Shown: positions 9,443 through 21,868 of the stretch, in pieces
Numbering within the stretch: the first letter of the stretch is position 1
How the letters are laid out: every line of letters starts with the position of its first letter
From: Dechloromonas denitrificans
GTDB lineage: Bacteria > Pseudomonadota > Gammaproteobacteria > Burkholderiales > Rhodocyclaceae
Assembly (NCBI RefSeq): GCF_001551835.1
Contig: NZ_LODL01000019.1
Span: forward strand, 431,430 to 495,429
Direction of reading: 5' to 3'
DNA length: 64,000 nucleotides
Notes under the pieces: generated by a model
Databases searched by the model: none
Told to the model about the DNA's origin: nothing
What the model saw: only the letters and a program-made list of their open reading frames with translations
Program-made: the position numbers and the translations under genes

Positions 9443-9537
9443 CCCAACCGCACTTTGCCGCAACGCAAAACAACCGGCACTACCTGATTTAGGGTAGTCG
9501 CGCTAAGTCATTGAGAAACAGACTAAAAAATATTTTG

Positions 9538-9636
9538 GTGCACTGCACAAAAGGCAGTTGACATCAAAACAATCACCTCTATAATTACAGGCATGGTGCA
9601 GTGCAACATTGCTTCAGATAAGTGCGCTGCAACGGT
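9538..9636 (+). promoter_or_regulatory. Phasin promoter with three TGC-rich operator-like elements
   Basis: A near-perfect sigma-70 promoter reads TTGACA at 9558-9563, 16 bases, TATAAT at 9580-9585. Just upstream is the palindrome GTGCACTGCAC (9538-9548); just downstream of the -10 lies GTGCAGTGCAACATTGC (9596-9612); a third TGC-rich block (AGTGCGCTGCAACGG) starts at 9621. A strong promoter overlapped by TGC-rich repeats is what is seen at phasin genes controlled by the PHA-sensing repressor PhaR in other bacteria. The PhaR assignment is an inference; no phaR gene is in the window. The rest of 9443-9537 shows nothing else I recognise. Confidence 0.75.
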
Positions 9637-9681: not shown

Positions 9682-10236
9682 ATGTTCACCACGCCTGAGC
9701 AATTCGCTTCCGCCAACAAAGCCACTGTTGACTCCCTGCTCTCCCTGGCCAACACCGCCCTGGCATCTGCCGAGCGCATCGCTGCCCTGAACCTGAACAC
9801 CGCCCGTTCGCTGATGGAAGATTCCGTCTCCGGCGCCAAGGCCCTGATGGGTGCCAAGGACGTTCAGGAAGCCCTGTCCATCCAGGCTTCCCTGGCCCAG
9901 CCGAACGTCGAGAAGGCCGTTGCCTACTCGCGCAGCGTCTACGAAATCTCTGCCCAGACCCAGGAAGAACTGTCCAAGATGGTTGAAGGCCAGTTCGGCG
10001 AATTCCAGAAGACCGTCGCCGGCCTGCTCGACAAGGCTGCCAAGTCCGCCCCGGCTGGCTCCGACGTTGCCGTTGCCGCCGTCAAGAGCGCCATCGCTGC
10101 CGCCAACTCCGCTTTCGACAACATGAACAAGGCTGCCAAGCAAGTTGCCGAAATCGCCGAAGCCAATGTTGCTGCTGCCACCAACGCCACCGTCAAGGCC
10201 GTCGGTTCCGCTGCTGCCGCCAAGAAGTCCAAGTAA
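9682..10236 (+). CDS. phaP: Phasin (PHA granule-associated protein), copy 1
   Basis: The 184-aa, all-helical, Ala-rich protein has the Phasin_2 family layout: MFTTPEQFASANKATVDSLL at the N-terminus, then long amphipathic helices including LNTARSLMEDSV, QASLAQPNVEKAVAYSRSVYEI and EIAEANVAAATNATVKAV, and a basic tail KKSK. Phasins coat polyhydroxyalkanoate granules and control their size and number. A ribosome site (AGGAG at 9669-9673) precedes the ATG. Codon use is biased (GCC/CTG/AAG), as expected of an abundant protein. It is followed by a strong terminator and then a paralogue. Confidence 0.92.
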   Translation: MFTTPEQFASANKATVDSLLSLANTALASAERIAALNLNTARSLMEDSVSGAKALMGAKDVQEALSIQASLAQPNVEKAVAYSRSVYEISAQTQEELSKMVEGQFGEFQKTVAGLLDKAAKSAPAGSDVAVAAVKSAIAAANSAFDNMNKAAKQVAEIAEANVAAATNATVKAVGSAAAAKKSK

Positions 10237-20844: not shown

Positions 20845-20861
20845 GGCTTACTCCTGCTGCG

Positions 20862-20911
20862 GTGCAACATTGCACGGATCGAACTGTAATTGCATGAGCA
20901 ACCAATAACAA
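20862..20911 (-). promoter_or_regulatory. Promoter and PhaR-like operator of the 95-aa gene
   Basis: On the minus strand TTGTTA (20911-20906), 17 bases, TACAGT (20888-20883) form a plausible sigma-70 promoter. Immediately downstream is the palindrome GTGCAACATTGCAC at 20862-20875, covering about +1 to +14. Its first 12 bases, GTGCAACATTGC, are identical to 9601-9612 at the phasin promoter, and lie at the same place relative to the -10 box. Confidence 0.7.
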
Positions 20912-20959
20912 TTACGCCGCCAGGAACAACATTTGTGAATTTTTGTCCATAATCAAGCC

Positions 20960-21868
20960 ATGGATCGCTCTGCCGAAATGACCGCCTTCGTCCGCTCCGT
21001 CGATACCGGCGGCTTTTCTGCTGCAGCGCGGGAGCTGGACCTGACCCCGTCCGCCCTCTCCAAGCTGGTCACCCGGCTCGAAGACCGGCTGGGCGCCCGG
21101 CTGCTGCAGCGGACGACGCGCCGCCTGCACCTGACGCCGGAAGGCGAGGCCTTTTACCTGCGGGCCCGGCGCATCCTGGCCGAGATGGACGAAGCCGAAG
21201 CCGAAGTGCTGCAGTCGGCCAGCCACCCACAGGGCCTGCTCCGCCTGCATTGCGGCTCGGCCTTCGGCATGCACCAGCTGGCACCGGCCATTCCGCACTT
21301 TCTCGAACGCCATCCCGGCGTCCATCTCGACATCACCATCAACGACCAGCCGCCCGCCGCCGTCGAAGAGGGCATCGATCTCGCCATCCGCATCGGTCAG
21401 CTCGACGAGTCGTCGATGGTCGCCCGCCGTATCTGCAACCTGGAGCGCGTTATCTGCGCCGCGCCGTCCTACCTGGCCAGGTACGGCACGCCGCGCACGC
21501 CGGACGACCTGCATCAGCACAACTGCCTGTGGATCACCAGCCTGCCGGTACTGCGCCGCTGGCCGTTCGATACCGACGACGGCATCCGCGTCGTGCATAT
21601 CGACGGCAATGTCGTCGCCAACAATGCCGAGACGGTGCTGCAACTGACCATGGCTGGCGTCGGCATCACCCGGCTGACCGATGTCATCGTCGGCGACGCC
21701 ATCCAGCGCGGCGACCTGGTGCCGATCCTGACCGACTGGCACCACGTCGAGCCGGTGCCGCTCTTCGCCACCTACCCGAGCGGCCGCCACCTGTCGCCCA
21801 AGGTACGGGCGATGGTTGATTTCCTGGTCGAACGCTTTGCCGGCACGCCCTGGCGCAGCGCCGCCTAG
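20960..21868 (+). CDS. LysR-family transcriptional regulator
   Basis: The 302-aa protein has the LysR N-terminal winged HTH (AEMTAFVRSVDTGGFSAAARE, then LTPSALSKLVTRLEDRLGARLLQRTTR) and a C-terminal periplasmic-binding-like effector domain (PGVHLDITINDQPPAAVEEG and onward). It belongs to the large group with an aspartate-rich early effector region (LDLAIRIGQLDESSMVARR). It diverges from the 95-aa gene; its own -10-like CATAAT at 20948-20953 would give an almost leaderless message. The target and ligand are unknown; divergent genes are often LysR targets. Confidence 0.92.
   Translation: MDRSAEMTAFVRSVDTGGFSAAARELDLTPSALSKLVTRLEDRLGARLLQRTTRRLHLTPEGEAFYLRARRILAEMDEAEAEVLQSASHPQGLLRLHCGSAFGMHQLAPAIPHFLERHPGVHLDITINDQPPAAVEEGIDLAIRIGQLDESSMVARRICNLERVICAAPSYLARYGTPRTPDDLHQHNCLWITSLPVLRRWPFDTDDGIRVVHIDGNVVANNAETVLQLTMAGVGITRLTDVIVGDAIQRGDLVPILTDWHHVEPVPLFATYPSGRHLSPKVRAMVDFLVERFAGTPWRSAA

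Follow-up and report, generated by a model that had tools for sequence, protein, structure and literature searches.

The window analysed here, 64,000 nucleotides of the Dechloromonas denitrificans genome, contains a phasin gene (9682-10236, plus strand; Pfam Phasin_2) and a gene for a small protein of 95 amino acids (P0001; 20557-20844, minus strand) that have the same 12 letters, GTGCAACATTGC, in front of them (9601-9612 and 20862-20873). The initial annotation had noticed this run, each time just downstream of a -10 box, and had read it as an operator common to both genes and the small protein as a possible PHA-regulon or granule protein. This raises the question whether the run is part of an operator, whether that operator belongs to PhaR, and what this would mean for the 95-aa protein.

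The repeated 12-mer and the probable operator at 20854-20870

The identity of the two runs is seen directly in the sequence, and so are the -10 boxes beside them, TATAAT (9580-9585) at the phasin gene and TACAGT (20883-20888) at the 95-aa gene. The genome-wide scan that had been proposed, run with GTGCAAYRTTGC over 4.24 Mb, gave exact matches at the same two places only, i.e. at the phasin gene and the 95-aa gene (three strand hits). Taken alone, the repeat is weak evidence, because chance pairs of 12-mers are common in 64 kb (a couple of hundred by our own rough estimate). Copies with up to two mismatches number nine in the window, near the chance mean of 6.6. The likeness of the two places is wider than the 12-mer: 9594-9612 (TGGTGCAGTGCAACATTGC) and 20855-20873 (TGCTGCGGTGCAACATTGC) agree, as read from the sequence, in 17 of 19 positions. 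In its composition, the 12-mer is half of a PhaR-type site plus the adjoining TTGC.

In the available passages of the work on R. eutropha, PhaR sites are described as degenerate palindromes with one central nucleotide and the consensus YTKNTGCRNYGCANMAR, in which positions 1-4 and 7 from the centre are almost perfectly conserved; the rule given for a site is at most three mismatches to the consensus (PMC12849132). The stretch CTGCTGCGGTGCAACAT at 20854-20870 (minus strand ATGTTGCACCGCAGCAG) is a palindrome of this type with a single-nucleotide centre and the core TGCACCGCA. It has one mismatch to YTKNTGCRNYGCANMAR, well within the published rule and in an outer position, and positions 1-4 and 7 are intact on both sides. 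The site lies just downstream of the -10 box and of the inferred transcript start. Binding of PhaR at 20854-20870 is predicted.

The 17-bp palindrome is found with at most two mismatches in 16 of 16 orthologous upstream regions (ten with one, six with two), which are not 16 independent observations because the orthologues are related. In all 16 it sits past the -10 box, at -26 to -34 from the ATG. Positions 1-4 and 7 are kept on both sides in 13 regions, and the core is damaged in three (L039, L040, L101). The letters of the arms vary among orthologues while the palindrome stays, as in ATGTTGCGTCGCAACAA and ATGTTGCATTGCAACAA. Random draws of 150 bp (4,000, taken from 12 of the loci with the operator sites included) contained a match with up to two mismatches in 8% of the cases and with up to one in 2%. 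The 16 regions include L097, whose protein is 99% identical to our own; L098-L100, L103-L105, L107 and L108 repeat L032-L034 and L036-L040 and were counted once, as were L133 and L106, which have the same upstream sequence. L041 (G007, a 27-residue fragment) and L042 (the second piece of the G024 gene) were left out of the counts, and the starts of L034, L035 and L039 were shifted in frame to an ATG.

The perfect palindrome that the initial annotation had described at 20862 is present as a 6+6 inverted repeat with a 2-nt centre, GTGCAACATTGCAC (20862-20875), whose centre is 6-7 bp off that of the PhaR register. In its complete form, GTGCAANNTTGCAC, it is found in only 5 of the 16 orthologous regions; its outer arm GTGC[AC]A (20870-20875) is retained in 13, and the phasin site of the window bears a TTGC that matches this arm. 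When complementary pairs per centre were compared in 13 of the 16 regions, the PhaR register was best (0.67), followed by an intermediate centre (0.61) and the 6+6 repeat (0.59). As the main operator, GTGCAACATTGCAC was set aside, since it is intact in 5 of 16 regions, with the 17-bp palindrome found at up to two mismatches in 16 of 16, even though 0.59 is near 0.67. Because of this symmetry and the retention of the arm, the 6+6 repeat may have a role outside the PhaR reading; judged by its sequence, the arm may be an extra half-site. Thus, the idea of an operator common to both genes holds in so far as both have a PhaR-type site, with the correction that the true operator of the 95-aa gene would be 20854-20870 and not GTGCAACATTGCAC.

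PhaR-type sites at the phasin gene, at phaR and in the genome

The phasin promoter consists of TTGACA (9558-9563) and TATAAT (together 9558-9585, plus strand) and has three PhaR-type elements: operator 1 upstream of the -35 box (9535-9551, no mismatch to the PhaR consensus), operator 2 near the transcription start (9593-9609, two mismatches) and a third, weak element (9619-9635, three mismatches, offset -63). At least two sites with at most two mismatches are present in 29 of 30 phasin promoters of the genus (our own plus 29 relatives, the best-scoring 30 of the phasin matches), usually one about -135 to -160 and another about -77 to -101, counted from where the phasin match begins. This resembles the arrangement at R. 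eutropha phaP1, where, in the passages at hand, sites precede the -35 box and also occupy the transcription start, and are likewise single-centre palindromes with a TGCRNYGCA core (PMC12849132). The 95-aa gene differs from that described system in having one site plus the GTGCAA arm, in front of a small gene without a phasin domain.

PhaR itself is encoded in the genome by one gene (PF07879, E 7.5e-29, over the cut-off). Two TGCANTGCA cores just upstream of it (G000:C2:143564-143572 and 143618-143626; L073/L096) suggest that phaR may be autoregulated. One of these cores directly follows a TATAAT box.

The strict motif HTKNTGCRNYGCANMAD occurs at 36 sites in the genome and its reversed pattern, which controls only weakly for composition and codon bias, at none. 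A looser pattern, TGBTGCRNYGCAVCA, with 22 mismatch-free sites, was replaced by the published form. Outside our crude gene calls lie 23 of the 36 sites, a raw count uncorrected for the intergenic fraction of the genome. Of the 13 inside, one is the site of the 95-aa gene, where a spurious ORF won the call, six fall in the first 60 bp or so of the called ORF and six are deeper. Six of the 36 sites belong to four phasin genes. The random scatter over the genome that had been named as a refutation of the operator is thus spoken against by the 23 sites outside gene calls and the six at phasin genes.

Other neighbours, from a survey of 30 adjoining ORFs out of a larger number, are a MaoC-phosphotransacetylase protein (with the site inside the called ORF), acetate kinase, a MeaB-type mutase component, a C4-dicarboxylate transporter, a TRAP binding protein and regulators, as well as an HSP90-family gene, a helicase and a GatC-type gene that have no evident link to storage. 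The strict sites concerned include L083, L086, L090, L093 and L123, near MaoC-PTA, MeaB-type mutase, acetate kinase, DctP and DcuA/B genes. By this motif, the PhaR regulon of the genus is possibly enlarged and would reach past phasins. For the S. meliloti PhaR (AniA) regulon, the passages available describe a palindromic YGCRNYGCR-type motif and targets beyond phasins as well, and at SMa1961 a single site between the -10 box and the transcription start; that motif is alphaproteobacterial and its arms are AT-rich, and those passages do not mention the 95-aa family (PMC12542648). One more strict site (L114:1501-1517; G000:C7:127766-127782) has no clear gene start beside it. By analogy with mmgR, which is among the targets of PhaR in S. 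meliloti, it is perhaps at the promoter of a small RNA.

The density of the motif sets the genus apart: 6.93 sites per Mb in 35 genus genomes (855 sites; reversed pattern 17), compared to 2.21 per Mb in 16 genomes with PhaR and 1.95 per Mb in eight without PhaR from other families of the order. Among these other families the presence of PhaR hardly matters, and since the density there is alike with and without it, the argument from site counts is limited to this genus. As a general sign of PhaR, the strict-site count failed outside the genus and was given up.

The divergent LysR gene and rival readings

The spacer upstream of the 95-aa gene also serves a divergent gene for a LysR-family regulator (20960-21868, plus strand; best NCBIfam match YafC, below cut-off). 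The promoter of the 95-aa gene, TTGTTA (-35, 20906-20911) and TACAGT with a 17-bp spacer, both on the minus strand, is conserved in relatives. In an alignment of 15 spacer sequences (orthologues from genus genomes and named genome records), much of the spacer has diverged. Retained are a block on the lysR side, both promoter boxes, the element that follows the -10 box and the surroundings of the ribosome-binding site. The block, ATTATGGACAAAAATTCACAAATGTTGTTCC on the minus strand (20923-20953), has its centre about 60 bp upstream of where the 95-aa transcript is inferred to start; it is a candidate LysR site and/or lysR promoter, in which no clear dyad was resolved. It is strongly conserved (ATTATGGAnnAAAATTCACAAATGTTTTTCC, minus strand) and separate from the PhaR-type site. 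LysR binding sites are inverted repeats of the form T-N11-A; in the operator at 20854-20870, the symmetric T..A pairs about the centre are, by eye, 7 and 13 nt apart and not 11.

The divergent pair is present in all 16 loci compared. LysR orthologues of at least 74% identity number 13 in 60 genus genomes (own included), and all of them lie beside a divergent 95-aa gene; the 95-aa protein was searched in a set of 60 as well (own, 35 genus relatives, 24 of other families), and among the 36 genomes common to both searches the same ten have both genes. G007 has a fragment of the 95-aa gene only, together with distant LysR relatives. A search of viral contigs with the LysR protein gave no relative. 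LysR activators bind at about -60 from the transcript start. The LysR protein is likely a second regulator of the 95-aa gene.

It might then be asked whether the operator at 20854-20870 belongs to the LysR protein instead of PhaR, since a regulator that is always paired with the 95-aa gene, in 13 of 13 cases and in the same ten of 36 genomes, could be the main one. Against this, the same motif occurs at phasin promoters and upstream of phaR, the one-nucleotide centre and the TGCRNYGCA core agree with the PhaR site as far as the published passages give it (PMC12849132), and the separate block at about -60 would be the better LysR candidate. We regard assignment of the operator to LysR as unlikely.

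Two further explanations were weighed. That the shared 12-mer arose by chance agrees with the abundance of 12-mer pairs in 64 kb and with the near-chance number of its close copies in the window, but it is disfavoured by the comparative data, i.e. the position-specific conservation in 16 of 16 regions, together with the fit to the published motif, and has very little probability. At the 5' end of the transcript, GTGCAATGTTGCAC could fold into an RNA hairpin; retention of the GTGC[AC]A arm in 13 orthologues and the nearby inferred transcript start would be in line with this. However, the arm is missing in three orthologues, the predicted leader structures differ among orthologues, and none of the 16 leader folds stands out from 200 mononucleotide shuffles each (z from -1.4 to 1.1). 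With no support from these folds, the hairpin was dropped as highly improbable.

Proposed control and the 95-aa protein

In the reading we prefer, and hold with good confidence, 20854-20870 serves PhaR as an operator where transcription of the 95-aa gene begins; the gene would be repressed by PhaR, released by PHA and probably activated by LysR. This reading is built on what the sequence shows: the motif, where it lies, how it is conserved, and a gene for PhaR. Free PhaR, probably as a dimer, would occupy 20854-20870 and block RNA polymerase. Once PHA is made, PhaR would be drawn to the granules and the 95-aa gene would be released along with the phasins. The divergent LysR protein would probably activate the promoter from the block at 20923-20953; this logic of activation by LysR and repression by PhaR is proposed because of the LysR pairing and the conserved block at about -60. 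Since the site is found in 16 of 16 regions, PhaR is encoded and six strict sites are at phasin genes, the 95-aa gene is a strong candidate for a PhaR target that stays repressed until PHA titrates PhaR away, and it is probably switched on during bioplastic storage. For Dechloromonas agitata, the passages available describe the genes phaR and phaC as well as inclusions that would fit PHA granules (PMC13044030), which makes PHA storage in the genus plausible.

With regard to the protein, the suggestion of a PHA-regulon or granule protein stands for the regulon part, as a strong candidate by sequence. The protein has no recognisable phasin domain: a Pfam search with E up to 1 gave no family. Like phasins (PF09361), it is small, has an amphipathic and hydrophobic helix and has the operator type in common with them; unlike them, it has no Pfam match. 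The structural model (mean pLDDT 75.8, pTM 0.38) has one long helix, residues 6-58, ahead of two WNPQ motifs. Residues 36-54 are hydrophobic, and the protein is modestly amphipathic. These predicted features fit a granule-surface or membrane-associated protein and prove neither. A place on PHA granules is possible, but regulon membership is no proof of it, since the site neighbours include metabolic enzymes, transporters and regulators. It is tempting to speculate, quite tentatively, that the protein stands for a new, narrow class of PHA granule or granule-membrane proteins with a long helix and a C-terminal WNPQ that most members have twice. Its control would be shared by PhaR, for the storage state, and a LysR sensor dedicated to it, and the PhaR regulon of this genus would extend past phasins to acetyl-CoA and acyl-CoA enzymes.

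Searches with E up to 1 found no relative of the 95-aa protein among PHROGs or solved structures. NCBIfam NF046098 (RSP_7527) is matched by our protein with 26.3 bits (cut-off 26). The match pairs residues 2-23 with 22 of the 48 profile positions, and the remainder of the helix and the WNPQ motifs fall outside it; all nine A1 members match it at E of at most 0.1. In R. sphaeroides, RSP_7527 is a hypothetical protein gene from which the sRNA UdsC derives, according to the passages available (PMC9779115). No paper on the 95-aa family in PHA storage is among the matches listed from the open-access literature. As far as we have seen, the family is uncharacterised, and the kind of operator is known while the regulon member is new. 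PHA storage in Dechloromonas and its relatives can thereby be connected, in a way open to experiment, with a family of small proteins not characterised so far, and the PhaR regulon of the genus may well be larger than its phasins. Should the connection be confirmed, the family would offer a candidate for a granule protein that lacks the phasin fold.

Members of the family turned up solely in Dechloromonas, in Azonexus and in unnamed Rhodocyclaceae or Betaproteobacteria records. The scan of genome records gave 12 loci, with the titles Dechloromonas, Azonexus, Rhodocyclaceae, Rhodocyclales or Betaproteobacteria, and possibly missed distant relatives because it starts from conserved peptide patterns. 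Invariant in the nine aligned members are the DI, IE, AR, RP and WNPQ positions, and seven of the nine have a second WNP motif. L036 and L039 are shorter members with a single WNPQ motif. The orthologue in G024 (L040/L042) is split across two reading frames; because of frame shifts, the L040 protein is absent from A1 and that of L108 from A2. In Dechloromonas hortensis, the 95-aa protein is 99% and the LysR protein 100% identical to ours.
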